Part shown: piece by piece, positions 32,097 to 63,472 of the stretch
Position numbering within the stretch: the first letter of the stretch is position 1
Layout: every line of letters starts with the position of its first letter
NCBI RefSeq assembly: GCF_013342145.1
Contig: NZ_JABUQZ010000001.1
Coordinates: 1,736,001-1,800,000, forward strand
Length of the DNA stretch: 64,000 nt
Origin: Haloterrigena gelatinilytica
GTDB taxonomy: Archaea > Halobacteriota > Halobacteria > Halobacteriales > Natrialbaceae
Reading direction: 5' to 3'
Program-made: the position numbers and the translations under genes
Notes under the pieces: model-generated
The model's database searches: none
What the model was told of the DNA's origin: nothing
The model's input: the letters and a program-made list of their open reading frames with translations, nothing else

Positions 32097-32167
32097 TCGT
32101 CGTAGTCGTGGCATGGACGGCGAGCTACCTATCGGTTCGGTTCCGCGGCGACGCGTCCGCGGGCGGC

Positions 32168-32677: not shown

Positions 32678-32849
32678 GGGGGTTGTAGGACTCCAGCGGA
32701 CAAAAGCCTAGTAGCGGTCGTCGCTGCACCTTTGCGGGTCGCACTCGCCGAGAACGTCGGTCGCCTTTCCGAGACCCGTCGCCGGGAGCGGCGTTCGCAC
32801 GCGCTGATAGAACGCGCCAGTTTACCCTCGAGGGCGTCCTACGGGACGT

Positions 32850-33377: not shown

Positions 33378-33383
33378 GAAGCG

Positions 33384-33770
33384 TTACCACGGAACGAACC
33401 GACGGAGGCGGGCGAGGATCGACGGCTCCTCGCGGCGGACGCGCAGCGTCGCCCCCTCGGCTTCGAAGGCCGCTTCGGTCGCGGGGATCCGCTCGCCGTC
33501 GGGCAGCCGAACCGACTGTTCGCGGCAGGGCACCGTCCCGCCGCTGGTCGGCCCGAACGTCGGCGCGCGGGTCGTCGGCTCCGGGGCCGGCCGGTCGTAC
33601 TCGAGTTCGTACACCGTCGTCCCGTCGACGTCCAGTTTCCGCCAGTCGACGAGCGCGCGGTCCCCGCTCGTTCCGACGACGCCGGTTCCCCGCTCGGCGG
33701 CGCCGTCGCGGTCGCTTCGATCGTCGCGATCGTTCCGATCCGCGACGAATCCGTGGCCTCCCGAAGTCAT
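33384..33770 (-). CDS. haloarchaeal protein of unknown function
   Basis: 128 residues. The first 40 are charged and look disordered. The remainder is probably beta-rich: ALVDWRKLDVDGTTVYELEY and SVRLPDGERIPATEAAFEAE, ending in a basic LARLRRFVPW. I do not recognise the family. It starts 37 bases beyond the truD stop, so it may follow truD in one transcript. Confidence 0.55.
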   Translation of the reverse strand: MTSGGHGFVADRNDRDDRSDRDGAAERGTGVVGTSGDRALVDWRKLDVDGTTVYELEYDRPAPEPTTRAPTFGPTSGGTVPCREQSVRLPDGERIPATEAAFEAEGATLRVRREEPSILARLRRFVPW

Positions 33771-33807
33771 AGATTCACTTCGACACAGGGCCTCAAAAAT
33801 CTCCGCC

Positions 33808-35190
33808 TCATCCCAGGTCGACCGGATCGACCTTCAGGTACTCCCGGCAGACGACCGTCGCGTACGACCCCTTCGGCAGACCGAAGGAGAGGGTCAGCGG
33901 CTCGGTCTCGAGCGAGAGGGTCGTCCGCACCAGGATCGCGCGCCGGGTGCCGCTCGAGTAGAACTCGCCCGGCAGGTCGAAGTCGGCGGGCTCGAGATCC
34001 AGGTCGTCGAGGACGGCGCGTTCGATCTCGCCCTGCTCGCCGTCGGCGAGCTCCGTCTCGGTGCCCACGAGCGGCGCCGTGACGAACGCCCGGCCGCGCT
34101 CGCAGTGGCGCCGGACCGAGCGCACGCGACGGTCGGTGACCCGCTGGAGGCGGTCGGTGTCGGGCAGTTCGAGCCCCGCCGGCGCGTCGGTGTCCGCGAA
34201 GCAGGCCACGTCTCCCTCCACGGGTTCGTCGAACGGCAGCCCGCGCTCGAGGCGCGCCGAGAGCATCAGGTTGAACGCGTACGACTGGGCGGCGTGGACG
34301 AACAGCCGCTGGAGGTTGGAGGGGAGGCGCTCGAGGGCCGCGCGGTAGTCCGCGGGATCGGGCTCGCCGTCGACCTCGGCGAGCCCGTGACAGAGCGAGC
34401 GCTCGTAGCGCAGTCGGTTCGGGAACCGCTCGAGGGCTTCCTGCCAGTCGCGGGTCTCCTCGACGAACGCGCGGGCCTCCTGGGTGGACTCGGGCTCCGC
34501 GTCGGTGGGGTTCCCGAGGTAGGCCATCACCGCGCCGGCCCAGTCGCCGCGGACGATCTCGAGGCCGACCTCGTGGGTGACCGGGCGGCGGCTGCCGAAG
34601 CGCTGCTGGCCGAAGAAGTTGGGGACGCCGATCGAGACGGTCGTCTCGTCGTCGGCCGAGTCGTCGTTATCCGTCTCGTCGGCGCCGTTTTCGAGGCCCC
34701 CGAAGGCGTGCAGTTCGTCCGTGATCTCGGCCGCGCGCTGGGGGTCGTCGGGGTCGCTGACGACCAGTTCGAACTCGTTGCCCGCGAGGTCGCCGAACTC
34801 GAGCGACCGGCCCGCGCGGCCGACGACCTCGATGTCGGCGCCGCGGACGTCGGGGAGGTCCGCGGGGTCGGCGCCGTAGATCGAGAACAGCTGCGTGGTG
34901 ACCGCGTACTTGTCCTTCGTCCCGGCCCAGTTGACCCGCTCGCGGGAGACGCCGAGCGCGTCCGAGAGCCGGCCGACGAAGTCGTTGGTGTCCCAGCCCG
35001 ACAGCGTCGCGCGAACGACGAGGTAGGGGTAGGCGTCCGTCGCCGCGTCGACGGGCTGGGTGTCGAAGCGCTCGCGTTCGCGCACGCGGAAGTGGTCGTC
35101 GTCCGCGCGAAGGCGGCCGCCGACGCCGTCGGTATCGGTGACGTAGTGCTCCATGCCGACGGCCTGCTCCGTGGGATGTGCCGGGCGCAT
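33808..35190 (-). CDS. truD: tRNA pseudouridine(13) synthase TruD
   Basis: 460 residues. TruD converts U13 in the D-loop of some tRNAs to pseudouridine. The catalytic motif [10 protein letters not shown] is present with nucleophile Asp93; the TruD insertion region contains [20 protein letters not shown]. The C-terminal end [20 protein letters not shown] is typical. The family N-terminus [20 protein letters not shown] supports ATG 35190. Pth2 lies further upstream on the same strand with an 81-residue gene on the opposite strand between them. Confidence 0.95.
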
Positions 35191-35325
35191 GCTGGATGGC
35201 GGCGCTTAGGCGGCCGGGGATAAATCGGTTCGTTCTCGCCTCGAGCGGAACGCGAGCGAGTCGACCGGAGAGCGATGAGACGGGTGATCGAACGAGTTAT
35301 TGGACTGTTGACCGAACGCGGTCGT

Positions 35326-42519: not shown

Positions 42520-43970
42520 TCAGTCGTCGGTCAGCTCCGGATCGCTCTCGCCCGTCGCCGGCTCGTCTCGAGTCGCGGCCTCGTCTCCGTCTTCCTCGTC
42601 GATGACGCCCTCGCGCCACGTTCCCAGCCGGAACCAGGCGACGGCGACGACGAACGAGACGGCCATGCCGAACGAGTACGCCCACCAGATCCCCTCGATG
42701 CCCCAGTCGAGCCCGCCGATCTCGAGGCCGAGGACGGGAACGGTCACCGTCCACGCGAACGCCAGCACGAGCGCGACGGGGACCCGGAAGATCCACCGCG
42801 AGAGGAACGAGAGCACCATCGCCTCGCGGGTGTTGCCGGCGCCGCGGAAGGCGCCCTGAACGACCATGACGCCCGCGAACAGCGTCCAGAACGGCGCCAT
42901 GATTCGCAGGAAGACGACGCCCTCGGCGATCACGTCGGGGTCGGCGACGAAGAGCCGCATGGCCTGGGCCGGAAACGCGATCAGGACCGCGGCGACGGCG
43001 CCGATCACGACCATCGTCCCCGCGGTCGCGGTCCGCGCGACGGCCGCCGCTCGCTCGGGCGTCTCCGCGCCGAGGTTCTGGCCGACGCCGGTCGCGGTCG
43101 CGTTGCCGACGGCGCCGGCGACCGCCCACGTCACGGACATCAGCCGGACGCCGATCCCGTAGGCTGCGGTCGGCGTCGCGCCGAAGCGGGCGACCAGTCC
43201 GGCCATCGCGACCGAGGCGAAACTGCGCGCCCAGCCGTCGATCGTCGACGGATAGCCGACGTCGACGAGCCGTCTCAGAACGTCGACGTCGGGCGTGAGA
43301 TCCTCGAGTCGGAGGCGAACGCCGAAGCTCCCGTCGAGCAGGATGTAGATCCCCGCGGCGGCGGCCAGCCCGCGGGAGCAGAACGTCGCGACGCCGGCGC
43401 CGCGGGTCCCCCAGGCCGGGAACGGCCCCAGCCGAGGATGAGGAACGGGTCGAGGACGACGTTGACGCCGGCCGAGACGACGACGAGCCACATCGCCGTC
43501 TTCGTGTCACCCGCGCCCTGCAGCGACGACCGGAACGCGAAGAAGAGAAAGGTTAGCGGTAAGGCGAGGAAGATGACCTCGATGTACGCCAGCGCCTCGG
43601 CGAACACCGGCCCGCGGGCGCCGATCAGCTCGAGCAGCGGGCGGCGAAAGACCAGACCGGCCGCGGCGAGGACGCCCGAGACCGCCAGCGTCAGCAGGAC
43701 CGTCTGGGCGACCACGCGATCGGCCATCCGGTCGTTCCCGGAGCCGACGTACTGGGAGACCAGGGCGATGGTCGCCGCCGTGATCCCGATCGCCGTCGAG
43801 ACGAACAGCCACGAGAGGGGAAACATCAGCGAGACGGCGGCGACGGCGTCGCTGCTGACGCGGCCGACCCAGAACATGTCCGCGAGGTTGTAGACGGTCT
43901 GGAGGAGGTTCCCCAGGACCAGCGGCCACGCGAGGCGGGCGAGCTTCGGGGGAATCGCCCCCGTCGTCAT
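42520..43970 (-). pseudogene. MATE family efflux transporter, interrupted by a -1 frameshift
   Basis: The N-terminal part (MTTGAIPPKLARLAWPLVLG... to VVLDPFLILGWG) and the C-terminal part (FPAWGTRGAGVATFCSRG... to ESDPELTDD) are in different frames. They join at about 43424-43430, where one G appears missing from a short G run. Repaired, the product is about 480 residues with twelve transmembrane helices in two MATE halves, exporting drugs or toxic organics by Na+ or H+ exchange. Everything else looks intact, so a recent mutation or a sequencing error are equally possible. Start ATG 43970 matches the family N-terminus. Confidence 0.85.
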
Positions 43971-44172
43971 GTCGACGCGCTTTCGCTCCGGTTGCGAGTC
44001 CGTCTCTACCACTGTCTTTCCGTCCGAGTCTCGCTCGCTCGAGTGAAAAGGGCTCGCCTCCCGCGAACGGATTGCCGACTCTACGAGGCCGGAACTCGAG
44101 CGTCCGCGGTTCGAAACGGTTCGGATTCGCGGGCCGAAAGAAGGAGTACGGTTGTTGTGAACGTCCCGTACA

Positions 44173-44178
44173 TTTATG
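44173..44178 (+). promoter_or_regulatory. TATA-like box of the GH97 gene
   Basis: TTTATG centred about 30 bases before ATG 44206; an in-frame ATG overlapping the box at 44176 is thereby less likely. Confidence 0.45.
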
Positions 44179-44205
44179 TGCGAGGGTGTGACAGGCACTA
44201 CCTGG

Positions 44206-47200
44206 ATGTCTGAAGAACATTTACAACAATCGTTCTCTCATTCGAGTCGCCGCCGGTTCCTCGGCGGTGTAACGGGACTCGCGGCCGCGGCAGCGTACAC
44301 GCGAGCCGTCCCCGAAGACGCGGCGGCGCGAGTCGCGAACGGCGACGACCGCGCCGTCCAGTGCGTCAGTTCGCCGGACGGTACCGTCGAGGTGACCGTC
44401 GACGTCTCCGACGGGACCCCGCGCTACGCGGTGGCGGTCGACGGCACGACCCCTCTCGAGCCGTCACCGATCGGCTTCGACTTCCGGAACCAGCCCTCGT
44501 TCGGGGCGAGCGCGGACGGCACGACCGGTTCCGACGTCGCGGTCACCGGGAGCGAACGCGCGTCGGAAACGGAGGTCTGGGAGCCCGTCTGGGGCGCGTA
44601 CGATAGCGTGAGCGCCGAGTACAACGCGCTCGTGGTCGGACTCGAGGAGACGGCCGAACCGGGCCGGTCGGCGAACCTCGAGGTCCGCGTCTTCGACGAC
44701 GGCGTCGGCCTCCGGGTCGTTTTCGGCGACAGTTTCGCGAGCAACAGCGGACGGGCCGTCGTCACGTCGGAGAACACCGCGTTCGCGTTCGCCGACGACG
44801 ACACCGCCTGGTGGATCCGAAACGAGGTCACCAACCCCCGGTTCGAACAGGAGTACGAGGAGACGCCGCTCAGCGAAATCCCCGGCGGTCGGCGGGAGAC
44901 CCGACCCACGGGGACGCCGATGCGAAACGGCGCGCACACGCCGCTGACCGTCGAGACAGGCGACGGTGACGTCTACCTGAGCGTTCACGAGGCGGACCTC
45001 GAGGACTACGCGGCCGCGACGCTCGCGCCGCGGTCCGACGAGGGCGGAACGGAGCTCGTCACGGAGCTCACGCCGCTGCCGGACGGAACGAAGGCGTCGC
45101 TGGAACTCCCGAACGCGACGCCGTGGCGGACGATCCAGATCGGCCGCCGGCCGGGCGACCTGATCGAGTCGGAGCTGATCCCGCTGTTGAGCTCCGAACT
45201 GAAGGAGTCGGCCATGCCGACGGTCGACGGCGAGCCCGACACCGACTGGATCGAGCCGCGCAAGTACGTCGGCATCTGGTGGACGATGATCGCCGGCTCC
45301 GCCAACTGGGAGTACCGGCCGGACGACTCCTTCGACAGTCCCGAGGACGCGGCGGGATACGTCCACGGCGCCCGGACCGAACGGATGAAGCGCTACATGA
45401 ACTTCGCGGCGGAGAACGGTCTCGACAGCGTCCTCGTCGAGGGGTGGAACGAGGGCTGGGACACCTATCCCGGCGACGGCACCGGACTCGAGTTCGGCGT
45501 CGACGACTCCTATCCGGACTTCGACGTTCGCGAGGTGACCGACTTCGGGCGCTCGCTCGAGTCCGACGCGGAGATGACGATCCACAACGAGACCGCTGGC
45601 GCGCTGCCCCACTACGAGGACCAGATTCTGAACGACGACATCTTCCAGCAGTACGAGGACGTCGGCATTCACTCGATCAAGAACGGCTACGTCTCCGACC
45701 CAGGGCTGGGTATCGAGGGCGACGGCGCCGAGCCGACGCACAACCAGCACAACCAGCTCGCGGTCAACCACCACCGGCTGGTCATCGAGGCCGCCGCGGC
45801 GAACCGCCAGATGCTCGAGATCCACGAGGGGATCAAGCCGACCGGGGAGATCCGGACCTACCCCAACGTCGCCAACCGCGAGGTCGTCAAGGCCCAGGAG
45901 TACGACGGCTTCGAGCAGTTGAGCGCCGACGTCGCTCCGGACCACCACGTCACGCTCCCGTTCACCCGGAATCTGGCCGGGCCGGTCAGCTACCAGCCGG
46001 GTATCTTCGACATCACGTTTAACGACGATCGGGGCGGGCAGATACAGACGACGCGAGCGAAACAGCTCGCCCTCTATCCCAACTACCTGAGCGGGCTGCA
46101 GATGGTCGCCGACCGCGTCGAGGCCTACGTCGACGAGACACTCGTCGTCGGCGAGTGCCTGCAGGCGGCCTCCGGCGACATCGACGGCTTCGTCACGCTG
46201 GACGAGTGGCGAAACGCCTTCGGCACGAACTACGTCGCGGTCGACCCGAACCGCGTTCCGTCGGGGTCGTCCGTCTCCTTCACCGTCGAAGACGCCGAGG
46301 CGGGCACGCACGAACTCCACCTCCGGTACGCGGCGGCCCCCGAGGACAACGCCCGGCGAGTCGTCGAGGCCGGCGAAACCCGGGCGACGCTACGCGTCAA
46401 CGGCGAGACGACGACCATCAACCCCGACTTCACCGGCTACTGGGACCAGTGGGCGGTCTTCACGACGGAAATCGACCTCGAGGACGGCGACAACGAGATC
46501 GCGATCGAACTACACTACGACGAGTCGGGCGAGGCGTTCGAGGGCGACGTCGGCGGCTTCAACCTCAACACGATCGGGGTCAGCGAACCCGACGCGCCGT
46601 CTCCGGTCCCGGCCGAGTACGAGGGGTACACGCCCGAGAACGAGAACTTCGACGCGAAACCCGCATTCGAGTTCATCGAGTCGGTTCCCGCGGCCGGCTG
46701 GGACGAGACGCACGTCGTCGATAGCGAGATCGGCGACTACGTCGTCACCGCCCGCCGGAAGGGCGAGGAGTGGTACGTCGGCGCGATGACCGACGAGGGC
46801 GGCCGCGCCGTCGACGTGCCGCTCGAGTTCCTCGCGCCCGGAAAGTCCGGCGGCAAGGGGAACGGAAACGGTCCCGAGGGCCCCAAGTACGTCGCCGAGA
46901 TCTACTCCGACGGCCTCGGCGGCGGCTACGAGTCCGACCCCGAGGCCGTCAGGATCGACGAGGCCGTCGTCGATCCGAGCGCGACGATCCTCGCCTCGAT
47001 GGCCCGCAGCGGCGGGACGGCGATCCGACTCCGTCCCGCGACGGGCGAGGAACGCGAGGAGCTCCCGACCTACGAGCGGCCCACCCAGGACGTGCGCTAC
47101 GAGATCGACGATCGAGCGGGACTCGACGATCCGTTCATTACGGCGACCGGCTCGAACGACGGCGATTTCGTCGGCGGGACTACGGTCGCGATCGAGGTCG

Positions 47201-49349: not shown

Positions 49350-51833
49350 GTGGAGCTGATAATCACGGAGAAGGACAACGCCGCGCGACGGATCGCCGAC
49401 ATCCTCTCCGGCGGCACCTACGACTCGAGCCGCGAGAACGGCGTCAACGTCTACGAGTGGGGCGGAAAGCGCTGCGTGGGGCTGTCGGGCCACGTCGTCG
49501 GCGTCGACTTCCCGGACGAGTACTCGGACTGGCGGGACGTCGAGCCCGTCGAACTCATCGACGCCGACGTCGAGAAGACGGCAACGAAGGAGAACATCGT
49601 CGCGACGCTGCGCATCCTCGCGCGCAAGGCCACCCGCGTCGCCATCGCGACCGACTACGACCGCGAGGGCGAACTCATCGGCAAGGAGGCCTACGACATC
49701 GTCCGCGACGTCGACGAGGAGGTCCCCATCCGCCGCGTGCGGTTCTCCTCGATCACGGAAAACGAGGTCCAGAGCGCCTTCGACGATCCGGACGACCTCG
49801 ACTTCGATCTGGCGGCCGCGGGCGAGGCCCGCCAGATCATCGACCTGATCTGGGGCGCCGCGCTGACCCGCTTCCTCTCGCTGTCGGCGGGCCAGCTCGG
49901 CAACGACTTCATCTCGGTCGGGCGAGTGCAGTCGCCGACGCTGAAGCTGATCGTCGACCGCGAGCGCGAGATTCAGGCGTTCGATCCCGAGACCTACTGG
50001 GAGCTGTTCGGCGATCTGACGAAGGACGAGACCACGTTCGAGGCCCAGTACTTCTACCGCGACGAGGACGACAACGAGGCCGAGCGCGTCTGGGAGGAGG
50101 CCGTCGCCGACGAGGTCTACGAGACGCTGGCCGAGCGCGACTCGGCGACCGTCGTCGACGTCAACCGCCGGACGCGGACGGACACGCCGCCCGAGCCGTT
50201 CAACACGACCCAGTTCATCCGCGCGGCCGGCGCCCTCGGCTACTCCGCCAAGCGGGCGATGTCCATCGCCGAGGACCTCTACACCGCCGGCTACATCACC
50301 TACCCGCGGACGGACAACACCGTCTACCCCGACGACCTGGATCCCGAGGAACTGCTCGACGACTTCGTCGGCCACCCGACGCTCGGCGACTCGGCCGAGG
50401 ACCTCCTCGAGACCGACGAGATCGTCCCCACCGAGGGCGACGAGGAGACGACCGATCACCCGCCCATTCATCCGACCGGCGAGATCCCCTCGCGCGGCGG
50501 CGACGTGAGCGACGACGAGTGGGAGGTCTACGAACTCGTCGTCCGGCGGTTCTACGCGACCGTCGCCGACGCGGCCGTCTGGGAACACCTCAAGGTCGTC
50601 ACCGAGGTCGACGACTACCGCATGAAGTCCAACGGCAAGCGCCTCGTCGAGCCCGGCTACCACGACGTCTACCCGTACTTCAGCACGTCCGAGAACTACG
50701 TCCCCGACGTCGCCGAGGGCGAGGAGCTCGCGCTGACCGACGTCGAACTCGAGGAGAAGGAGACCCAGCCGCCCCGCCGCTACGGCCAGTCGCGGCTCAT
50801 CGAGACCATGGAGGACATGGGGATCGGGACGAAGTCGACCCGACACAACACCTTAGAGAAACTGTACGATCGGGGCTACATCGAGAGCGATCCGCCGCGG
50901 CCGACCAAGCTCGCGATGGCCGTCGTCGACGCGGCCGAGAACTACGCCGACCGCGTCGTCAGCGAGGAGATGACGGCCCAGCTCGAACAGGACATGGACG
51001 CCATCGCCAGCGGCGAGGCGTCGCTGGACGACGTCACCGACGAGTCCCGCGAGATGTTAGAGGAGATCTTCGCCAACCTCGCCGACTCGCGCGACGAGAT
51101 CGGCGACCACCTCCGCAAGTCGCTCAAGGACGACAAGCGGCTGGGGCCCTGCCCCGAGTGCGGCGAGGACCTGCTCGTCCGACGCAGCCGCCACGGCTCC
51201 TACTTCGTCGGCTGCGACGGCTATCCGGACTGCGAGAACACGCTGCCGCTGCCCTCGACCGGCAAGCCGCTGATCCTCGAGAGCGAGTGCGAGGACCACG
51301 GCTTGAACGAGGTCAAGATGCTCGCCGGCCGCCAGACGTTCGTCCACGGCTGCCCGCTCTGTAAGGCCGAGGACGCCGGCGAAGGGCCCGTGCTGGGCAC
51401 CTGTCCGGACTGCGGAGACGAACACGACGGCGAACTCGCCGTCAAAACTCTCGAGAGCGGTTCCCGACTGGTGGGCTGTACGCGCTACCCCGACTGCGAG
51501 TACTCGCTACCGCTGCCGCGGCGCGGCGAGATCGAGGTCACCGACGAGCGCTGCGACGAACACGACCTGCCCGAACTCGTCGTCCACAGCGGCGACGACC
51601 CCTGGGAGCTGGGCTGTCCGATCTGTAACTACCAGGAGTTCCAGGCCCGCGAGAGCGACTCCGGCTCCGACCTCGAGGCGCTGGACGGCGTCGGCGCCAA
51701 GACCGTCGAGAAGCTCGCCGACGCGGGCATCGAGAGCCTGGACGATCTGACCGAGGCCGATCCGGACGCGGTCGCCGAGGACGTCGACGGCGTCAGCGCC
51801 GATCGGGTCCGAACCTGGCAGGCGAAGGCGTAA
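49350..51833 (+). CDS. topA: DNA topoisomerase I (type IA)
   Basis: 827 residues from a GTG. TOPRIM domain with IITEKDNAA and ATDYDREGELIG (the acidic metal site), then the catalytic segment YITYPRTDNT with active Tyr318, and the TSTRHNT-like TKSTRHNTLEKLYDRGYI. The C-terminal third has several Cys4 zinc fingers (CPECGEDL...CDGYPDC, CPDCGDEH...CTRYPDC, and CPICNYQE), ending in a helix-hairpin-helix region LEALDGVGAKTVEKLADAGI. It relaxes negative supercoils. The start is fixed by the Shine-Dalgarno site six bases upstream. It converges on the permease gene with two bases between. Confidence 0.96.
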   Translation: MELIITEKDNAARRIADILSGGTYDSSRENGVNVYEWGGKRCVGLSGHVVGVDFPDEYSDWRDVEPVELIDADVEKTATKENIVATLRILARKATRVAIATDYDREGELIGKEAYDIVRDVDEEVPIRRVRFSSITENEVQSAFDDPDDLDFDLAAAGEARQIIDLIWGAALTRFLSLSAGQLGNDFISVGRVQSPTLKLIVDREREIQAFDPETYWELFGDLTKDETTFEAQYFYRDEDDNEAERVWEEAVADEVYETLAERDSATVVDVNRRTRTDTPPEPFNTTQFIRAAGALGYSAKRAMSIAEDLYTAGYITYPRTDNTVYPDDLDPEELLDDFVGHPTLGDSAEDLLETDEIVPTEGDEETTDHPPIHPTGEIPSRGGDVSDDEWEVYELVVRRFYATVADAAVWEHLKVVTEVDDYRMKSNGKRLVEPGYHDVYPYFSTSENYVPDVAEGEELALTDVELEEKETQPPRRYGQSRLIETMEDMGIGTKSTRHNTLEKLYDRGYIESDPPRPTKLAMAVVDAAENYADRVVSEEMTAQLEQDMDAIASGEASLDDVTDESREMLEEIFANLADSRDEIGDHLRKSLKDDKRLGPCPECGEDLLVRRSRHGSYFVGCDGYPDCENTLPLPSTGKPLILESECEDHGLNEVKMLAGRQTFVHGCPLCKAEDAGEGPVLGTCPDCGDEHDGELAVKTLESGSRLVGCTRYPDCEYSLPLPRRGEIEVTDERCDEHDLPELVVHSGDDPWELGCPICNYQEFQARESDSGSDLEALDGVGAKTVEKLADAGIESLDDLTEADPDAVAEDVDGVSADRVRTWQAKA

Positions 51834-51835
51834 GA

Positions 51836-53182
51836 TCAGATCCGTTTTTCGACCGTCTGGACCCCTTCCGAGAGCGTCTCCCGCTTGAAGTACAGCGCCT
51901 CGACCGCGAAGACCGCCGCGGCGATGACGACGACCAGCCAGAAGACCGCGGGGAGCTGCGAGTAGAGGTACCACGTCAGCATGACGAAGAAGGCGGCCGA
52001 GCCGATCGCACCGACCAGCGGCGGGATCGGATTGACGTCGACGTCGTCGGAATCGCGCACCGTCAGCGCGAGCGCGCACATCGTGCCGAAGACGACGATA
52101 AAGGCCAGCGAGGCGAACTCGACGACGGCCTCGAGGCTCCCGAGGACGGCGAAGGCGGCCGTCAGGACGCCGATTACGAGCACGGTCCGCTTGGGCGCGG
52201 CGTCGGCGTCCGGATCGCCCATCTCGTGGGGCAGGATGTCGTCGTCGATCAGGTTCTTGGCGAAGATGGCCTCGCTGAACAGCGTCGAGTTGATCGCGCT
52301 GGCGGTCGAGATGAGGCCGGCGAGCCCGACCGCGAGCGCGAGCCACTTCGAGATGAGGAGGGCGCCGTAGAGCAGCGCCGGCTCGGGCTGGGCGGTGACG
52401 ACCTCTTCGGGCAACAGCGTCGTGATGACGAACCCGACGAGGATGTAGATCGCGGCCGCGATCGGAATCGAGATGGCCACGCCCTTCGCGAGCGTCTCGT
52501 CGGGATTGTCGAACTGCTCCTGATCGTAGAACAGCAGCTGCCAGCCCTCGAAGGAGACGAACCCGACCGAGGCGGCGATTACGGGATTGAGACCGAGTTG
52601 CGAGAAGCCGGTCCGCAACTGGAAGTGCGCCGCGCCGTACCAGAGGCCGACGAGGCCGAAGACGGCGATGATCCCCGCCTGGACGAACACGAGGTAGCGC
52701 TCGACCGCCGCCGACGAGCTCGCGCCGAGGAGGTTCAACCCGACGAAGACCGCGAGCACGCCGACAGAGAGGAACTGCCGGACCGGCAGCCCCCAGACGT
52801 ACTCGAACCCGATCAGCATCTGGCCGTACATGCCGAACGCGTAGGCGTACATCGCCATCGTCCCGATGTAGCCGACGACGAGCGTCCAGCCGACGACGCC
52901 CGCGGTCGTCGATCTCCCCGTCAGTTCCTCGATGTAGGTGACCGAGCCGCCGTTGCTGTCGGTCGCGTCGTTGAGCTTGACGTACGAGTACGCACAGCAG
53001 CAGACGACGACGGTCGCGAGGCCGTAGGCGAACCAGGTCAGGACGCCGGCGGCGGCGACGACGATGCCGATCGCCGCGTAGATCCCGCCGCCGACGATGC
53101 CGCCGACGCCCAGCGCGACGGCCGTTCCGACCCCGAAGCCGCCGCCGTCGTCCTCCGACCCGCCGCCACCGTCTTCGCTCAC
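51836..53182 (-). CDS. APC superfamily amino acid permease
   Basis: 448 residues, about twelve transmembrane helices. The first helix carries the APC pattern GTAVALGVGGIVGGGIYAAI. A central stretch FVSFEGWQLLFYDQEQFDNP is the TM6-type region near the substrate site. It is a secondary transporter for amino acids or related compounds; substrate unknown. The GTG start at 53182 overlaps the stop of the upstream binding-protein gene (GTGA), so translation is coupled. An unspecific frame upstream is the shadow of that gene. APC proteins normally work without a binding protein, so the pairing is odd. Confidence 0.88.
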   Translation of the reverse strand: MSEDGGGGSEDDGGGFGVGTAVALGVGGIVGGGIYAAIGIVVAAAGVLTWFAYGLATVVVCCCAYSYVKLNDATDSNGGSVTYIEELTGRSTTAGVVGWTLVVGYIGTMAMYAYAFGMYGQMLIGFEYVWGLPVRQFLSVGVLAVFVGLNLLGASSSAAVERYLVFVQAGIIAVFGLVGLWYGAAHFQLRTGFSQLGLNPVIAASVGFVSFEGWQLLFYDQEQFDNPDETLAKGVAISIPIAAAIYILVGFVITTLLPEEVVTAQPEPALLYGALLISKWLALAVGLAGLISTASAINSTLFSEAIFAKNLIDDDILPHEMGDPDADAAPKRTVLVIGVLTAAFAVLGSLEAVVEFASLAFIVVFGTMCALALTVRDSDDVDVNPIPPLVGAIGSAAFFVMLTWYLYSQLPAVFWLVVVIAAAVFAVEALYFKRETLSEGVQTVEKRI

Positions 53183-54774
53183 GATCCCGACCCCACCGTT
53201 ACGACGCCGTTTTCCCACACGAGCCGCGGATTGACCCGTGCGATCGGGTGAACGCGGAAGTTCTCGACGCCCGCGTCCGCCGCGAAGCTGTTCTCGAACG
53301 AGCAGATCGGCAGGCAGACGCGATCCTCGAGCAACCGGGTGATCGCCGTCTCGTAGAGGCGGCGCCGCTGCTCGCGATCCGTCGTCGTTCGCGCCGTCGC
53401 GAGCCGTTCCATGACCGCGTCCTCGCGGTAGAAAGTCCCGTTCGTCACGCCGGTCATGTTCTCGTGGAACGTCGGGTAGAGATGGGTGTCCGGGTCGGGC
53501 GTGCCCGTGATCTCCCCGACGAACACCGAGTAGTCGCGCTCGGAGCCGGAGACGTGCCGCTCGAGGAATTTCGTCTCGGATACCGAAATCGTGAGCGCGC
53601 CGCGGCTGGCGTCCCGGAGGCCGCCGGCGAGCGCCTCGCCGAACTCCTTGTGTTTGGGATCCGTCGAGGTCAGGATGCGAAGCTGCCCGCTGGCCGCGTC
53701 GGCCTCGCGAAAGAGGTCGCGGGCGCGTTCGGGGTTCTTCTCGTTCGCGAGCTTCGCCCACTCGTCGGTCGGCATGTCCCACTCCTCGGCGACCCGCGGC
53801 GGTAGCGGGCCGTACTGGCGCTGGCCCATCGGCTCGACGAACTCGGAGACCGCCTTCTCGAGGTCGATGCAGTAGCTGATCGCCTCTCGCACTCGCGGGT
53901 CGGTCGTCGGCCCCTCGTTGCAGTTGAAGCCGAAGTAAAACGACGTGTACCCCTGCCGGCGCTTTACCGACGCGTTCGCGACGTCACTGACGTGATCGAC
54001 GATCAGCGGCGAGACCGGCTCGATCAGATCGTTTCGATTCGTCCGGAGGCTGGTCAGCTGGGTCACCGGGAACTCGACGTAGACCATCGTGAGCCGATCG
54101 ATCGCGGGCGGGGTCTCGCCCCAGTAGTCGTCCCAGCGGCGGAGCGTGGTCTTCTTCTCCGCGCTGAACGACGCCACCTCGAACGGGCCGGCGCCGATCG
54201 GATCCGTGGCGAACGCCTCCCTGTCGTCCTCGCGCTCCTGTCGGGGCACGATCGGATGCGTGAGCGCGTGCTCGAGCGCCGGGTACGGTTCCGTCAGCGT
54301 GAACCGAACGGTGTGCTCGCCGTCGGCCTCGACCGATTCGAACGGGCTCACCAGCCATTCCGTCGGCGCGTCTTCCTCGAGCGGCGCGGTGTACGAGTAG
54401 ACCACGTCCTCGGCGGTCACCGCCCGGTCGTTCTGAAACCGCGCGCCCTCGTCGAGTTCGACGACGATCTCCCGGCCGCCGTTATCGAGTTCCGGATCGC
54501 CGGCCGCGATCGCGGGAACGATATCGGTACCCTCGCCGTAGCCGTAGAGCCCCTCGAAGATCCGATCGATCGCCTGCTCCGAACCGATCGCTCGCGCGGT
54601 GATCGGATCGAGAGAGAGCGGCGGCCGGAGCGTTCCCACGCGGAGCGTCGAGCCCGCGTCCGTTCCAAGCGTCGTCGAACAGCCCGCCATCGTTGCCGTG
54701 CTCGCCCCGCCGAGAGCGACGAGCAGGTCGCGTCGCGCCACTCCGCCTGTTCGGTTCTCACCCTGATCAGTCAT
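53179..54774 (-). CDS. family 5 extracellular solute-binding lipoprotein
   Basis: 531 residues. The N-terminus VARRDLLVALGGASTATMAG followed by Cys is a twin-arginine lipoprotein signal. The remainder is a family 5 binding protein of the DppA/OppA type: LRPPLSLDPITARAIGSEQA, RDLLVA..., GARFQNDRAVTAEDVVYSY, GAGPFEVASF and REAISYCIDLEKA. Such proteins usually deliver peptides, nickel or opines to ABC permeases. None of the ABC permease or ATPase genes is here; instead the stop overlaps the start of an APC-type secondary permease. Whether the two work together is open. Confidence 0.9.
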   Translation of the reverse strand: MTDQGENRTGGVARRDLLVALGGASTATMAGCSTTLGTDAGSTLRVGTLRPPLSLDPITARAIGSEQAIDRIFEGLYGYGEGTDIVPAIAAGDPELDNGGREIVVELDEGARFQNDRAVTAEDVVYSYTAPLEEDAPTEWLVSPFESVEADGEHTVRFTLTEPYPALEHALTHPIVPRQEREDDREAFATDPIGAGPFEVASFSAEKKTTLRRWDDYWGETPPAIDRLTMVYVEFPVTQLTSLRTNRNDLIEPVSPLIVDHVSDVANASVKRRQGYTSFYFGFNCNEGPTTDPRVREAISYCIDLEKAVSEFVEPMGQRQYGPLPPRVAEEWDMPTDEWAKLANEKNPERARDLFREADAASGQLRILTSTDPKHKEFGEALAGGLRDASRGALTISVSETKFLERHVSGSERDYSVFVGEITGTPDPDTHLYPTFHENMTGVTNGTFYREDAVMERLATARTTTDREQRRRLYETAITRLLEDRVCLPICSFENSFAADAGVENFRVHPIARVNPRLVWENGVVTVGSGS

Positions 54775-55015: not shown

Positions 55016-58000
55016 ATGTCTGGACCCGACAAAATCGCGGACGGACCGGGAATCGGAGGGGGCGACGGGATCGAAGTCACCGTCGGGATCGATCGACTCG
55101 AAGCCTTCCTCACGGCCGACGATCCCGACGTTCGGGAGTACGCTGCGCGAACGCTCGCGACGAAGGCCGCCGAGCGGCCCGACGACGTTCGCTCGGCCGT
55201 CCCGTCGCTGACCGACCGCCTCGAGGACGAGCCGTCGATCAGGTCCCACGCCGCCGCCGCGCTGTCCGCCGTCGCGGCCGACCACCCCGGCGCCGTTCGC
55301 GAGTCGATCCCCGCGCTGACCGACCGGCTGGAGGGCGAGGCGCGGAGCGCCTCGAGTACGAGCGGCGAAGCCGCGAGTGCGACCGTCCGCGCGGACGCGG
55401 CCGACGCGCTCGCGGCCGTCGCGGCCGCAGATCCCGCAGCAGTCGCCGACTCGATCGAGGCGCTCGGGCGCTACGCGACCGACGGGAACGAGCGGGTCAG
55501 GGTTCGGACGACCGACGCGCTCGCGGCCGTCGCCGACGCCCAGCCCGAACGGGCCGTCGCCGTCGTCGACGACGTCGCCGCCACGGCCGACGACGAGACG
55601 GCCGCCGTCCGCGAGAACGCGACGGCGGTCCTCGCGGCGGTCGCGGCGGCCGCTCCCGACGCGGTCCTCGAGGCCGTCCCGGCCCTGGTCGATCGGCTCG
55701 AGGACGAGGCGGACGACCCGGACGGCGCGACCGCGTCCGCCGAGGCCGGAGCGATCGGCGGCCACGCGATGGAAGCGCTTCGAGCGATCGCCGACGACTC
55801 GCCGGCGGCCGTCGCGGACGCGGTCGATCCGATCGCAGCCCGCTTCGCGGACGACCGAGAAGGGGTCCGTCACGACGCCGCCATCGCCCTCGCGTCGATC
55901 GCAGCCGCCCGGCCCGAGGCGGTCACCGAGGCCGTCGATCGACTCGCGGACCGACTCGACGACGCGGCGGCGATCCGCCGCGAAGTGCGCCGGCGCGCTG
56001 CGCGAGTCGCGGCAGCCGAACCCGGCGGCGTCGCGTCGGCGACCGCCGCTCTCGTCGACCGACTCGACGACCCGCTCGAGGCGTTCGGACGGACGCCGCC
56101 GGGACGCTCGCATCGGTCGCGGCGGAGCGCCCGACCGCGATCGCCGAGGCCGTCCGCCCGCTGGCCCGACGGCTGGAGACGGACGTCGAGGCGGTTCGGA
56201 GCCACGGCGTCACGGCGATCGCGGCCGTCGCCGACGAGCGGCCGGCCGCGGTCGAACCCGTCGTCACCGAACTGGCCGCCGTCGCCGACGCCGACGACGA
56301 GCGCGTTCGCCTCGACGCGGTCCGGGCGATCGCCGCCGTAGCGTCGTCCTCGCCCGACGCGATCCGACCGGTCGTCCCCGCTCTCGCCGAACGGGTCGAC
56401 GACCCCCACGAACCGGTCCGCCGGCCCGCAGTCGACGCGCTGGCCGCGCTGGCACGCGAGACGCCCGCCGCGGGGACGGACGTTCCCGCGCTCCTCGAGG
56501 CCCTCGAGGGCGAGGCGGAGAACGCCTCGGACGCGGACGACGAGTGGATTCAGGGGTACGCGGCCCGCGGCCTCGCCGACGTCGCGCGGTCGGCGACCGC
56601 CGACGCCCACCCGGCGGTCGGTCGCTGACCCGGCGGCTCGACGACGACGCGGCCGCCGTTCGGCAGGCCGCGACGCGCGATCTCGTGACCGTCGCGGCCG
56701 AGCGCCCGCTGGCGGTTCGCGGCGCCGTCGGCCCGCTGGCCGAGCCGTTGGGAGACGAGGACGCGACGGTTCGGAACAACGCGGCGATCGTCCTCTCGCG
56801 GGTCGCGGCGTCGGCCCCCGACGATCTCCGCGAGGACGACGTGGTGGTCTCGTTGCTGGCGGCGCTGGACGACCCGGATCGTTCCGTTCGCCGGACCGTT
56901 CGCCGGACGCTCGGCGAGATCGCACCCGACACCGGCGACGACTGTCGGCCGACACTGTCGCTGGCCGTCGCGGAGACGACGGCCGAAGCGGAGCGGGTCC
57001 GCGTCGCCGCCTGCGAGGCCATCGCCACGCTCGGCCTCGAGTCCGGGGCGGAGGCCGAGGCCGTCGTCGAGGCGCTCGCCGAACTGCTGGTCGATCCGAC
57101 GCCGGCCGTTCGCGCCGCGGCGCTGGACACCCTCGAGACGACGCTCGCGGAGGACGCCGACGTCGAGCCGACGCCGACCGACGTCGTCCTCGAACTGCTG
57201 TCGGGCGATGACGACCGGTCGGCCGCCGTCGCCGCCGCGCTCGGGGACATCGCCCGGATCAACTCGGAGCCTATCGCCGCGGCCGCCCCGTCGCTGCTCG
57301 AGCGGCTCGCACCGGGCGGAGCCGACGCGCCGGCGCTCCTGCGCGCGCTGACGACGGTCGACGCGGCGGACGACGGCGACGCCAGCACCGTCACCGGGGC
57401 GCTCGTCGATCGGCTCGACGCCGACGGGGACCGACGCGCGATCGCCGGGGAGATCGCCCGGCTCGCGGCGACGGCGCCCGACGACGCGGCCGCCGAGCGA
57501 GACCGACTGGCCGACCTGCTCGCGGAGCGGGCGGGAAGCGCCGGACGGAACGGGGACGGGGAGGCCGACGACGAGGCGGTCCGGGGCTACGCCGCGCTCG
57601 CGCTCGGCACCCTCGCGGTCACCGGTCGCGACGACGGAAGCGCGCTGGAATCCGAGCTCGAGGCGGTCGACGACCGGCTGCTCGACGCCGCCTCGCTGGC
57701 GGCCGGCGGCGAGACACCGACCCACACCGACGGGATCAACACCCAGCTCTCGGGGATGGGCGACCGGCTGGACGCGGAGCCGTGGGTCGCCGGCCTCGCC
57801 GCCCTCGCGCTGGCCGTGCTGGCCGACGAGTCGGCGACGCTCCGGCCGACCGGGATCGAGAAAATCGCCGGCGGACTCGAGGCCGACGGTCCCGTCGTCC
57901 GGGTCGCCGCCGGTCGGGTCCTCGAGACGATGGCCGACGACGATCCGTCCGGCTTCGCGGACGCGGTGCCGGCGCTGCTCGCGGCCCTCGAGGACTCCGA

Positions 58001-58322
58001 TGCCGACGTCCGGGCGGCGGCCGCCGGCGCGCTGGCCGCGTGTGCCCAGTCGGACGATGAATCGCCGTTCGAGGACGCCGGTCGGAACCCCGTCCCGGTC
58101 CTCGAGTCGCGCCTCGCCGATCGCGACGGCCGGGTGCGCGCTCGAGCCGTCCGGACGCTGGCGGCGCTCGAGGCGGCCGAGACGCGACCCGCGATCGAGT
58201 CGCTGACCGACGACCCAGTCCCGGCCGTCGCGACCGCAGCCGACGACGCGGTGACGCGGCTCGCGGACGCCACCGACGCGCCCCCCGATTCCGACGCGGC
58301 GACGCCGCCAGCTGGCCGATGA
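55016..58322 (+). pseudogene. large HEAT-repeat protein gene with two frameshifts
   Basis: Three frames carry one continuous HEAT-repeat product: MSGPDKIADGPGIGGGDGIE... to about 56080, then DAAGTLASVAAERPTAIAEA... to about 56622, then TRRLDDDAAAVRQAATRDLV... to the stop at 58322. Repeats of about 38-40 residues (VRADAADALAAVAAADPAAV type) run over about 1100 residues; no signal peptide or membrane helix. Each break is a loss of one base in a G/C run, so restoring two bases gives a full gene. It could be decaying or misread. It overlaps the propeller gene by ATGA, indicating an operon. A solenoid scaffold is the likely role. Confidence 0.8.
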
Positions 58323-59374
58323 CGCGGGCCGGCGCGAACCGGTCGCGCGGTCGGCGGCCGACCGCTGGGCCGCGCCCGACCGAACGCTGGCGCGACGATC
58401 CCGAAGACGCCGCGATCGAAGCCGCGCCGGCGGTCGTCGGCGAGACGGTCGCCGTCGGTCTCGACGACGGCAGCGTCGCCGCGCTGGCCCTCGAGGACGG
58501 GCGCGAGCGCTGGCGGTTCGAAACCGGCGGCCCGGTCAGGGCCGCGCCCGCGGTCGCCGACGAGAGGGTCGTCGTCGGCAGCGCCGACGGCGCCGTCTAC
58601 GCGATCGACGCCGAGAGCGGCGAGCGCGCGTGGCGCTACCAGACCGACGGTCGCGTCGAGACGTCGCCGGTCGTCGCCGACGGCGTCGTCTACGCCTGTA
58701 GCGACGACCTCCACGCGATCGACGCCGAGAACGGTCGCCCGGTCTGGACGGCCGCCCTCGAGGGCGAGTGCTCCGGGCCGACGGTCGCCGACGATGCGGT
58801 CTACGTCGCCACCGGCGATCGACTGCACTCGCTCGCGACGGCCGACGGGGGCCGACGCTGGGAACGCACCTTCGAGGCCCCCATCGGCGCGCCGCCGGCG
58901 GTCGCCGATGGCACGGTCTACGTCGCCAGCGGCGAGACGCTGCTGGCGCTGTCGAGCGCCGACGGCTCGCGGCGGTTCCGGTTCGACACCGGGGCGCGGA
59001 TCGAGACGCCGCCGGCGGTCTCGAGCGCCGACGGCACCGTCTACGCGACCAGTTCCGACGGGAGCCTCTACGCCGTCGAGACGGCCCGCGGCACCGCGCG
59101 CTGGCGGGTCGACGTCGGGACGGCGGCGACGGGGCCCGCGGTCGTCGGCGAGGCGGTCTATCTGGCGACCGAGGACGGGCGGCTGCTCGCGCTGACGGCC
59201 GGCGACGGACGCCGGCGCTGGCGACTCGAACGCGAGTCGACTCCCGCGGCGATGATCGCCTCGAGCGCGACGCTGTGGCTTATCGACGACGGTATCGCGG
59301 CGCTCGGTGGCGGTCGCTCGTCCCTGACGGAGTCGCTCTCCGGGCTGTTCACTCGATTCGGCGGCGACTCCTAA
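58319..59374 (+). CDS. cytoplasmic PQQ-type beta-propeller protein
   Basis: 351 residues made of about seven repeats with the PQQ-like pattern (VAVGLDDGSVAALALEDGRE, VVVGSADGAVYAIDAESGER, VYVATGDRLHSLATADGGRR and so on). No signal peptide or lipobox and no membrane helix, unlike BamB or PQQ dehydrogenases, so it acts inside the cell, probably as a binding platform. The ATG overlaps the HEAT-repeat gene's stop (ATGA), so the two are translated together and probably meet as proteins. No catalytic residues are seen. Confidence 0.85.
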   Translation: MTRAGANRSRGRRPTAGPRPTERWRDDPEDAAIEAAPAVVGETVAVGLDDGSVAALALEDGRERWRFETGGPVRAAPAVADERVVVGSADGAVYAIDAESGERAWRYQTDGRVETSPVVADGVVYACSDDLHAIDAENGRPVWTAALEGECSGPTVADDAVYVATGDRLHSLATADGGRRWERTFEAPIGAPPAVADGTVYVASGETLLALSSADGSRRFRFDTGARIETPPAVSSADGTVYATSSDGSLYAVETARGTARWRVDVGTAATGPAVVGEAVYLATEDGRLLALTAGDGRRRWRLERESTPAAMIASSATLWLIDDGIAALGGGRSSLTESLSGLFTRFGGDS

Positions 59375-59459: not shown

Positions 59460-60791
59460 TCAGATCAGTTCGGCGACCTCGGCGGCGACGGAAGCGTCGA
59501 CGAACGCGATGACCCGGTCGCCGGTTTGGATGATCTTGTTGCCCCGCGGGATCTGCAGCTGCTCGTTGCGGACGATCGCGCCGATCACGATCCCGGACGG
59601 AAGCTGGTCGGTAACGTCCCGGAGGGCTTTCCCGGCGAGAGCGCTCTCCGAGTCGACGACGACCTCGAGCACTTCGGCGTCGTCGTGTCCAAGGACGCTG
59701 ACTTCCTTCGGTCCCGGCTCGTAAATGGTCCGGAGGATCTCGCTGACGATGATGTCTTCGGGGTGGACGATCACGTCGAGGCCGGTTTCCTCGAAGAGGT
59801 CGACGACCTCGGGGTTGTCGACGACGGCCGCGGTTCTGGCGACGTCGAACTCCCTGGCCAACTGCGCCAGGAGGTAGTTCGTGTTATCGTCGACCGTGCC
59901 GACGACCAGATCGGCGCCGGTTAACACGTTGGGGTTGAAGCCGCCGATGTTCGTCACGTCGGTCTCCGCGACCGACGAACGTCGGAGTCGGGTCGTCAAC
60001 TGCGTCGCCTGCTCCGGATCGCGCTCGACGATTTCCGGCGTCCAGCCCCGGGCCTCGAACTGCTGTGCGATCTGGTAGCCCAGCACGTCGCCGCCGACGA
60101 CCACGATGTCGTCTTCGGATTTCAACGGCGGCTGAGCGGAAACGTCCGCCGCGAAGCGGCTGATGCTGGCGAGACTGCCGATCACGACGACGCAGTCCCC
60201 CGACCGGATCACGGTCTCCCCGGTCGGGATGATGACGTCGTCGTCCCGGAGGATCGCCGCGAACGTCGCCGACGCGTAGCGATCCGCCTCCGCGACGCGC
60301 TGGCCGGTTATCGGCGTGTCCTCTCCGATTTCGAACTCGGCGACCTCCACTTGGTCGTCGGCGAAGGTGTCGACGGCGTGGGCGCCCGGAAGCGCGATCG
60401 TCCGAACGACGGCTTCGGCCGCGAGCTTATCGATACACAGCATCGTGTCGACGCCGAGTCCCTCGTCGAGCGACTGCCAGGTCTCGAACAACCCGACTTC
60501 CTTGACGCGGGCGATGGTGCGCGGATCGCCGGCCTGCTTGGCCGCGTTGCAGACCATGACGTTCGCCGCGTCGCTGTCGGTGCTCGCGACGACGATCTCC
60601 GCCCGATCGATGCCCGCCTCCCGGAGCGTCGACGCCGAGCGACCGTCGCCGACGACCCCGGTCACGTCGTGTCGTGAACGAAGCTCATCGACCAGATCCG
60701 CGTTTCGGTCGATGACGACCACATCATTGGATTCCGCGAGGTCAGCGGCCAAATTCGATCCGACGCTCCCGGCACCGATGATGAGAATCAT
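59460..60791 (-). CDS. trkA: Trk potassium transport regulator TrkA
   Basis: 443 residues, two RCK modules in tandem. Rossmann motif MILIIGAGSVGSNLAADLAE at the start and VVVGGDVLGYQIAQQF at about 220-235, each followed by a TrkA-C domain (VEVAEFEIGEDTPITGQRVA and VLEVVVDSESALAGKALRDV). NAD(H) or ATP binding controls K+ uptake by TrkH; haloarchaea keep molar K+ inside. No trkH gene is in the window. ATG 60791 is the family start. Confidence 0.95.
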   Translation of the reverse strand: MILIIGAGSVGSNLAADLAESNDVVVIDRNADLVDELRSRHDVTGVVGDGRSASTLREAGIDRAEIVVASTDSDAANVMVCNAAKQAGDPRTIARVKEVGLFETWQSLDEGLGVDTMLCIDKLAAEAVVRTIALPGAHAVDTFADDQVEVAEFEIGEDTPITGQRVAEADRYASATFAAILRDDDVIIPTGETVIRSGDCVVVIGSLASISRFAADVSAQPPLKSEDDIVVVGGDVLGYQIAQQFEARGWTPEIVERDPEQATQLTTRLRRSSVAETDVTNIGGFNPNVLTGADLVVGTVDDNTNYLLAQLAREFDVARTAAVVDNPEVVDLFEETGLDVIVHPEDIIVSEILRTIYEPGPKEVSVLGHDDAEVLEVVVDSESALAGKALRDVTDQLPSGIVIGAIVRNEQLQIPRGNKIIQTGDRVIAFVDASVAAEVAELI

Positions 60792-60937: not shown

Positions 60938-61573
60938 TTACGGCCTCGAGCCGCCGATGCGCGACGCCGTCGACCCGCCGGTCGTTTCGTCGGACGGTCC
61001 TTCCCCACGGTCACCGTCGGAATCCTCGACCTCGAGTTCGGCGTCGACGTCCCGGACGATCGTTTCGCGATCGAGGACGGCAGTCTCGTGCCACCGTTTC
61101 TCGCCGTTCGGATCGACGAGGATCGTTGTCGGGTAGCCGACGACGCCGTAGGCCTCGGCCAGTCCGGCATCGTAGCCGACGGCCCAGTCGCCGCCGTGGG
61201 TCGCCCACCACTCGCGGAGCGCGGCCGGCGACAGCGTCTCGGGGCGCTGGTAGGTGGCCGCGACGAATCGGACGGCGTCGCCGCGTCGCTCGCGGAGCCG
61301 ATCGCGGGCGGCGGCGAGTTCAGGGATCTGCGCCCGACAGTTGCCGCAGCCGGTGACGAAAAACGTGACGAGCGCGACCGCGTCGGTCGGAACGCGGACC
61401 GTCCCCGCCTCGCTCCCGCGCGCGTCGATCGTCTCCACCTCGAGGGACTCGTCGCCGTCGCTCATCTCCGGACCGTCGGCGCCGAACGACGGCGGCCCGA
61501 CTCGCAGCAGGGACCCGGCGCCGGCGAGGGCGCCCGCGCTTCCGAGACCGGCGAGGAGTTCGCGCCTGTTCAT
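60938..61573 (-). CDS. Tat-exported thioredoxin-fold protein (TlpA-like)
   Basis: 211 residues. Signal MNRRELLAGLGSAGALAGAG looks Tat-type, without a lipobox Cys. The thioredoxin fold (about 45-180) has the redox pair Cys76-x-x-Cys79 (TGCGNCRAQIPELAA), and a cis-Pro at YGVVGYPTTILVDPNG. Such proteins reduce or form disulfides outside the membrane, for example in cytochrome maturation. A disordered acidic tail follows. Function in this organism is unknown. It is divergent from the methyltransferase. Confidence 0.85.
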   Translation of the reverse strand: MNRRELLAGLGSAGALAGAGSLLRVGPPSFGADGPEMSDGDESLEVETIDARGSEAGTVRVPTDAVALVTFFVTGCGNCRAQIPELAAARDRLRERRGDAVRFVAATYQRPETLSPAALREWWATHGGDWAVGYDAGLAEAYGVVGYPTTILVDPNGEKRWHETAVLDRETIVRDVDAELEVEDSDGDRGEGPSDETTGGSTASRIGGSRP

Positions 61574-62374: not shown

Positions 62375-63472
62375 TCAGTCGAGAACGTCCTCGATGTCTC
62401 GCTCGAGGGCCTCGATACTGTCTTCGATGTTCTCGACCATCATCGTCTGCTCCTCGGTGGCGGCCGCGATGCTCTGTACCGCGGCCGTGACCTCGTCGCT
62501 CTGTTCGGCGACCGAGTCGATCATGCCGGTGATCTCCTCCGAACTCGCGGCCTGTTGGTCCGTCGCGGCGGCGATGTCCGTGATCCCCTCGTTGGTCTCC
62601 TGGATCGCGCTGCGGATGGTTTCCTGGTTCTCGACGACGCCCTCGATCTCCGTCACGACGGTGGCGATCTCCTCGTTGGTCGTCTCGACGCTGTCGACCG
62701 TGTCCAGGGCCGTCTCGCGGATCTCGGCGACGATGGCTTCGATCTCGTCGGCGCGCTCTTTGGACTGCTCCGCCAGGCCCTTGATCTCGTTGGCCACGAC
62801 GGCGAAGCCGTTCCCGGAGCCGTCGGCGCGGGCCGCCTCGATGTTGGCGTTGAGCGCGAGCAGGTTCGTCTGGTCGGCGATGTGACACTCCCCTTGCACC
62901 TCGGAGAGGCTGTCGGACTGCTCCTCGGCGGACTCGCTGATCTCCTGGGAGTTCTCGGCCATGTTCGTCGCCGCGTCCCGCAGTTCCGCGACGGCGCCCT
63001 CGACCTCGTCGCTCATCTGTTCTTGAAGCTGCGTGATCCGCTCTCGCTGTTCGATCAGCGTCGTCACGCGAGTGAGGACCTCGACGGCGCCGACGACGTC
63101 GCCGTCCTCGCTCGTGATCGGGACGCCGAGCGCGCGGGCGTGTACCGTCTCGCCGTCGGCGCTCTCGGCCGCCCGGATCGATTCCTCCCGGATCGGGCGT
63201 CCGGTCCGGATGACCTCCTCGGCGAGGGTCTCGTCCTCGCCTTCGGTCCCGAAGACATCGTACGCGTGTTTCCCCACGACGTCGCCGGCCGGATAGCCGG
63301 TGATTTCCTCGACGCCGTCGTTCCACCGGGTGATGTAGCCGGAGCCGTCGACGGCGAACGCCGGCTCCGGAAACACGTCGATAAGGCCGGTGAACGCGCC
63401 TCGCCAGAAGGCGGCCGCGTCGTCGTCCGCTCCGGGTTCGATGCTGGGGGGAGTTCCTGTCTCAATCGCCAT
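62375..63472 (-). CDS. soluble PAS-domain chemotaxis transducer with shortened signalling arm
   Basis: 365 residues. PAS domain (about 25-145, [20 protein letters not shown] and [20 protein letters not shown]), no transmembrane segment. The signalling hairpin tip [19 protein letters not shown] is intact, with a C-terminal arm of about 140 residues. The N-terminal arm is only about 50-60 residues: SEVQGE joins directly to CHIADQTN (nt about 62884-62893). In related transducers about 70-80 residues, including methylation-type heptads, lie there. It would sense through PAS and act on CheA/CheW. A TATA-like TTTATAAA lies about 40 bases upstream. Confidence 0.85.

Follow-up and report, generated by a model that had tools for sequence, protein, structure and literature searches.

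A HEAT/ARM solenoid and a BamB-type propeller in a single gene of Natrialbaceae, a candidate cytoplasmic scaffold

Introduction

Many large assemblies of eukaryotes are constructed from proteins that combine a solenoid and a propeller. According to the available portion of PMC2799638, proteins with both kinds of domains occur in most proteomes, and membrane coats are defined there by a propeller placed N-terminally to stacked pairs of alpha-helices. In haloarchaea, Halo_adaptin proteins are described with PQQ-like propellers in the accessible part of PMC10936438. Here we consider a locus of Haloterrigena gelatinilytica (Halobacteria, Natrialbaceae) at positions 55016–59374 of a 64,000-nucleotide stretch (assembly GCF_013342145.1, contig NZ_JABUQZ010000001.1, positions 1,736,001–1,800,000; hereafter, the window) of its 4.55 Mb genome. 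The original prediction was of two genes, a HEAT-repeat solenoid and a propeller, coupled through an ATGA overlap. We find one gene, broken in the window, whose intact relatives encode both parts in one chain. In the open-licence literature that we searched, a solenoid–propeller fusion of this kind is undescribed, which does not by itself show its absence from print.

Results

One fused gene and its broken copy in the window

In a search of 41 genomes (that of the window and 40 relatives), five relatives carried the HEAT part and the propeller within the same open frame. Of the 392 genomes of the order scanned with a five-sequence model, 22 matched nearly end to end with no stop; these 22 are among the single-frame carriers counted below. 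The HEAT part is present in 37 of the 125 Natrialbaceae genomes searched, distributed over 6 of 29 genera; named carriers belong to Natronorubrum, Natronolimnohabitans, Natrinema, Natronosalvus, and Haloterrigena. In 33 of these 37 carriers, the solenoid and the propeller form a single open frame of 1390–1537 codons that ends in the propeller and a conserved tail. The remaining four are the broken window copy, Haloterrigena salina with a deleted propeller, and two copies truncated where their contigs end (genomes G085 and G137). Thus, within the clade the two parts are not merely linked, as was expected if the original pairing was genuine, but fused. The deletion in H. salina (genome G001) has removed 1218 bases in frame, leaving a 1054-residue product composed of the HEAT part and the last residues of the fusion; as it joins these parts without a change of frame, it fits one gene only. 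In H. salina JCM 13891 (L102 / L069), the 1218-base loss could be a strain event or an assembly collapse.

To locate the breaks, the window gene was aligned to three relatives, G001, which belongs to the same genus, G002, and G004. It has five single-base length differences, at ∼55983 and ∼56005 (cancelling each other), 56082, 56619, and ∼58297, the last one visible only against G002 and G004, as G001 lacks that part. An extra pair of gaps at ∼58333 and ∼58367 amounts to six bases in total. Hence, the earlier claim of two single-base losses at ∼56080 and ∼56622 was right about these two frame changes and too low in their number. The change at ∼58297 creates the apparent ATGA overlap, whose ATG (58319) aligns with a methionine in 30 of 33 relatives, two residues past a tryptophan invariant in all 33. 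Therefore, 55016–59374 is one gene, and the ATGA is not a gene boundary.

In the 55,143 window bases that align with all three relatives, 11 single-base differences are specific to the window, nine of them losses. Four of the 11 lie within the fusion gene, above its share of the alignment (binomial p 0.008). The single-base differences private to one relative number 13 (G002), 15 (G001), and 62 (G004), coding and non-coding taken together. The G+C content around the breaks is 0.78–0.82. The ratio of nonsynonymous to synonymous substitution rates (dN/dS) is 0.28–0.51 between the window pieces and the relatives and ∼0.30–0.33 between intact relatives, the latter value indicating that the fusion gene is under selection; for topA, the gene of DNA topoisomerase I, it is 0.05. 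Several other window genes are split while being one frame in relatives, namely 42523–44252 (at ∼43429), 32000–35193 (at ∼33166–33367), and 26386–26831 (at ∼26664), which suggests either assembly indel errors or several decaying genes.

Two other accounts of the locus can be weighed on these data. Two separate, translationally coupled genes would explain the stop/ATG overlap that the window alone does have at 58319–58322, yet the single frame in nearly all carriers, the internal position of the methionine, the frame shift at ∼58297 relative to two relatives, and the HEAT frames broken already upstream of the overlap leave this account with hardly any credibility. It is much harder to decide whether the gene of the window strain is a true decaying pseudogene or a sequencing artefact. 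The clustering of window-specific differences speaks for decay, as does the comparison of the window pieces with G002, in which dN/dS (again 0.28–0.51) is somewhat above the value of 0.30 for G001 against G002, and the propeller or the whole gene has been lost in H. salina and several relatives. However, the other window genes also look frame-shifted, and both the excess of losses and the high G+C content at the break sites are in keeping with indel error, so that we regard decay as quite possible while leaning slightly away from it. Unless the breaks are sequencing errors, the window copy could not give the full protein.

Domain content

The three consecutive frames upstream of the propeller (Table 1) all hold HEAT repeats (Pfam HEAT_2, HEAT_EZ, Cnd1, and Adaptin_N), with further matches to PDS5 and SCD in the solenoid; the HEAT profile exceeds its cut-off and the paired-helix solenoid is continuous, so that the solenoid is as proposed. 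The propeller, also foreseen, matches PQQ_2 (PF13360, E 1.3e-51; 176 bits versus the cut-off of 27.6). It remains below the cut-offs of two narrower NCBIfam models, the BamB equivalog TIGR03300 (148–173 bits versus 285) and the PQQ-dependent dehydrogenase subfamily TIGR03075 (62–75 bits versus 480). Among the PADLOC defence models, the fusion matched only HEAT-type ones (OloA, 3.5e-14; HEAT-ARM_XIII, 2.7e-12) and, marginally, PDC-M54A (0.005). In the C-terminal tail, an invariant S is followed mostly by W or L, and then by I/L-S-G-L-F. As initially noted for the propeller, no export signal is seen, the N-terminus running straight into HEAT repeats. Transmembrane stretches are absent as well: 19-residue windows in the frames of 34 relatives never average above 1.81 in hydropathy. 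The isoelectric point of the fusion protein is ∼4.2.

Table 1. Positions of the fusion gene parts and neighboring genes in the window.
Feature	Positions	Strand	Remarks
topA (DNA topoisomerase I)	49350..51833	+	conserved upstream neighbor; same strand as fusion gene
Amino acid permease	51836..53197	-	between topA and fusion gene; along with next gene in 11/32 topA-linked carriers
Solute-binding protein (SBP_bac_5)	53179..54774	-	divergent from fusion gene
HEAT/ARM solenoid, stretch 1 (frame 2)	55016..56080	+	begins at ATG; residues 1–355 of intact relative G002; contains short out-of-frame patch ∼55983–56005
HEAT solenoid, stretch 2 (frame 1)	56083..56619	+	residues 357–535 of G002
HEAT solenoid, stretch 3 (frame 3), and linker start	56622..58322	+	residues 537–1098 of G002; stop 58320–58322 out of frame relative to relatives
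Inter-helix motif DDRLLDAASLAAGGETPTHTDGIN.QLSGMG.RL within solenoid	57670..57768	+	conserved in some genera; unmatched in many Natrinema-group copies
Eight-bladed BamB/PQQ-type beta-propeller domain	58319..59374	+	ATG 58319 aligns with a Met inside the fused protein
Conserved C-terminal tail SSLTESLSGLFTRFGGDS	59318..59371	+	short helix predicted, low confidence
TrkA-like protein	59460..60791	-	convergent; adjoins fusion gene in only 4/35 carrier regions
Redoxin/TlpA-like protein	60938..61573	-	convergent; relative in 24/35 carrier regions, also at fusion-free loci

Predicted fold

The protein of Natronorubrum texcoconense was modeled with AlphaFold as two segments that overlap, each from nine sequences; the mean predicted local distance difference test (pLDDT) scores were 85.8 (residues 1–1000) and 79.4 (residues 395–1449). 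Paired helices are predicted at residues 26–1077, with lower certainty at ∼467–514 and 825–833, and the first 1000 residues contain 54 helices, corresponding to a predicted superhelix of ∼26 HEAT/ARM repeats. They are followed by a disordered linker of ∼35 residues (∼1077–1110), a propeller (∼1112–1426) in which, by the predicted strand order, the N-terminal strand closes the last blade, and a low-confidence C-terminal helix (1433–1443). Seven blades had been proposed for the propeller; the model has eight, and the best matches are the eight-bladed BamB (Foldseek E ∼1e-17; Z ∼36, root-mean-square deviation 2.7, 314 residues aligned) and eight-bladed designs (Z 38 for one of them).

The same two segments were used to search the fold libraries, the full protein being too long for a single search. 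Residues 23–456 resemble designed ARM proteins, beta-catenin, and importin-alpha (Z 25–29), and the whole solenoid matches CAND1 (E 1.5e-17) and karyopherins, with low template modeling (TM) scores. A sequence-profile search with the solenoid gave designed alphaRep proteins, AP beta subunits, and the PP2A scaffold as matches. No single chain with both HEAT repeats and a propeller was among the fold matches listed, but matches to one domain took up each list, and the lack of such a chain there does not speak against its existence. Both kinds of match, by fold and by sequence profile, point to a scaffold-like predicted shape rather than to a function.

Distribution and history

The fusion is restricted to a part of the Natrialbaceae. 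All 15 non-carriers examined have topA, and no relics of the fusion were found at ten non-carrier topA loci, nine of which keep the redoxin or methyltransferase neighbor. On the topA tree (32 carriers and 15 non-carriers), the carrier label takes nine changes, at least six of them forced by well-supported branches. The 34 fusion proteins fall by genus in their tree, each of six genera forming one clade, with the support of 100 for five genera and 54 for genus g5. The pairwise distances of the fusion and topA correlate (r 0.83, 465 pairs), with the mean difference of 0.44 versus 0.10; the fusion gene evolves about four times faster than topA. On these trees and distances, a single origin with vertical descent and repeated loss is the simplest reading; transfer by recombination into the same site is a possible alternative. 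The fast evolution, together with the traceless absence from several close relatives, suggests an accessory function.

Source of the two halves

Outside the carrier genera, we examined the best propeller matches (18 regions, 19 frames). None of the 19 has HEAT repeats in frame with the propeller; in one region, HEAT repeats occur in a frame of their own ∼2 kb away. Seventeen of these propeller frames start with a twin-arginine-like (Tat) sequence, as judged by a simple pattern and not by a signal-peptide predictor; the fusion has no such start. As separate propellers are mostly Tat-like while the fusion is cytoplasmic, it appears that a usually exported kind of propeller has been joined to a cytoplasmic solenoid.

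HEAT-only giants of 1073–1080 codons occur in two genomes of genus g7, G052 (L195, 5923–9162) and G011 (L077, 5451–8669). They share 59 percent identity with each other, reach E values of 1e-113 to 1e-118 against the HEAT model, and have no propeller in frame or elsewhere in the fetched regions. A frame close to them resembles cysteine desulfurase by eye.

Gene neighborhood

Of the 35 carrier regions, 32 have topA upstream of the fusion gene in the same orientation; the fetched regions of the other three contain no topA. An operon of topA and the fusion gene was considered and is unsupported, as the opposite-strand permease and solute-binding genes intervene in 11 of the 32.

In genome G013 (genus g9; L216, 7723–11856), topA has an in-frame insert of ∼529 residues with matches to LAGLIDADG, intein-splicing, and extra helix-turn-helix models. 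The splicing model scores 34.1 bits, just below the cut-off of 35.8, and the insert is probably an intein. The window also encodes a second HEAT protein (3773–5125, 450 amino acids), which matches HEAT_2 better than any other protein of the genome (70.8 bits) and whose N-terminal half is very acidic and coiled-coil-like, and a PAS-MCP protein (62375–63472). The MCP match of the latter covers the profile only from position 44 (of 172) onward, and its signaling domain may therefore be partly missing.

Discussion

Taken together, these observations suggest, with a probability of roughly 0.6 by our estimate, one soluble, acidic, cytoplasmic protein of ∼150 kDa (superhelix, linker, eight-bladed propeller, and C-terminal helix) that acts as an accessory scaffold or adaptor; we infer that this role is dispensable. 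In this picture, one partner or an extended peptide would be enclosed by the ARM/HEAT groove, in the manner of importin-alpha, beta-catenin, or CAND1; a second partner would bind to the propeller on its tether, and the conserved tail would contact a third surface. More tentatively, at slightly less than even odds, the protein may be a clade-specific scaffold in which a normally exported propeller type has been captured on a cytoplasmic HEAT/ARM superhelix, independently of the eukaryotic HEAT–WD40 scaffolds, and which organizes some assembly. Several observations weigh against a scaffold role. None of the neighbors is functionally telling and no partner is known. The TM scores of the CAND1-like matches do not exceed 0.29, a level to be expected of long HEAT proteins in general, and similarity of fold does not show a function. 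The inner helices exceed the outer ones in conservation by a small margin only (entropy 1.14 versus 1.29), which does not delineate a clear binding groove. Finally, the amphipathic moment of the tail, examined with a membrane anchor in mind, is not above that of shuffled sequences in most copies, with at most 5 percent of shuffles as high for only 2 of 34 tails.

The original prediction also invoked large scaffolds of the coat-like or degradation kind. The scaffold idea is stronger than first proposed because the two halves are covalently fused; the coat and degradation parts have found no support. A protein that forms coat-like structures or shapes vesicles, comparable to the protocoatomer, to membrane-coat-like proteins of the Planctomycetes–Verrucomicrobia–Chlamydiae (PVC) group, or to the haloarchaeal Halo_adaptin version of the endosomal sorting complex required for transport (ESCRT), would likewise combine a solenoid and a propeller in one protein, and the Adaptin_N and PQQ-type matches, together with the PQQ-like propellers that Halo_adaptin proteins also bear (PMC10936438, accessible part), are what one would expect of it. 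However, the order of the fusion, from solenoid to propeller, is reversed, which places it outside the definition of membrane coats in the available portion of PMC2799638. Neither a Vps4/ESCRT-III neighborhood nor IG-like domains, which characterize the Halo_adaptin ESCRT, were found at the fusion locus: the identified neighbors (Table 1) include no ESCRT gene, and no IG domain was matched in the fusion protein. Snf7 (ESCRT-III) gave weak matches in 19 of the 125 family genomes, with no clear link to carriers, and exceeded the cut-off in none, although this is a weak test for divergent ESCRT-III. We therefore consider a coat-like role very improbable. An accessory factor of topoisomerase I or of the chromosome is unlikely too, if a shade less so. 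The conserved place downstream of topA and the matches to Cnd1, PDS5, and SCD, reminiscent of condensin- and cohesin-like HEAT proteins, favor it, but the Cnd1 and PDS5 matches are generic to HEAT repeats, the intervening opposite-orientation genes mean that co-transcription is not required, the non-carriers keep topA, and three carriers have no topA in the fetched region. Only the position of the gene would seem to tie the fusion to DNA topology.

Compared with known systems, the scaffold or adaptor that we favor combines familiar parts. Its propeller half matches the BamB/PQQ eight-bladed propellers in both sequence and predicted fold. Unlike BamB, a lipoprotein by its structure title, it forms the C-terminus of a cytoplasmic solenoid, and we know of no BAM complex in archaea. 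The predicted superhelix is of a repeat type similar to that of CAND1, karyopherins, beta-catenin, and Vac8, with CAND1 being also of similar length, while the identity of these proteins to the fusion solenoid is 12–17 percent; to our knowledge, none of them has a fused propeller. The likeness to condensin and cohesin HEAT subunits would be limited to the Cnd1 and PDS5 profile matches. The giants of genus g7 match the HEAT model, as the fusion does, and differ from it in having no propeller and in not being adjacent to topA. The eukaryotic Raptor and Vps15 have HEAT repeats followed by WD40, the same order as in the fusion; the fusion has no match to kinase or caspase-like domains, and its propeller is of the BamB type, not WD40. 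Membrane coats (clathrin, Sec31, and PVC coat-like proteins) also combine a propeller with an alpha-solenoid, whereas the fusion has the order opposite to that in the available text of PMC2799638, consists of HEAT/ARM repeats, and has no known membrane link. Since both-domain proteins occur in most proteomes, according to the same portion of that source, a fusion of this kind is less surprising. Correcting the false gene boundary turns the up to four fragments expected from annotation of the window strain into one protein. Confined to one archaeal family and intact in named strains of Natrinema and Natronorubrum, this single-chain form offers a tractable case of separate origin of the solenoid–propeller architecture.

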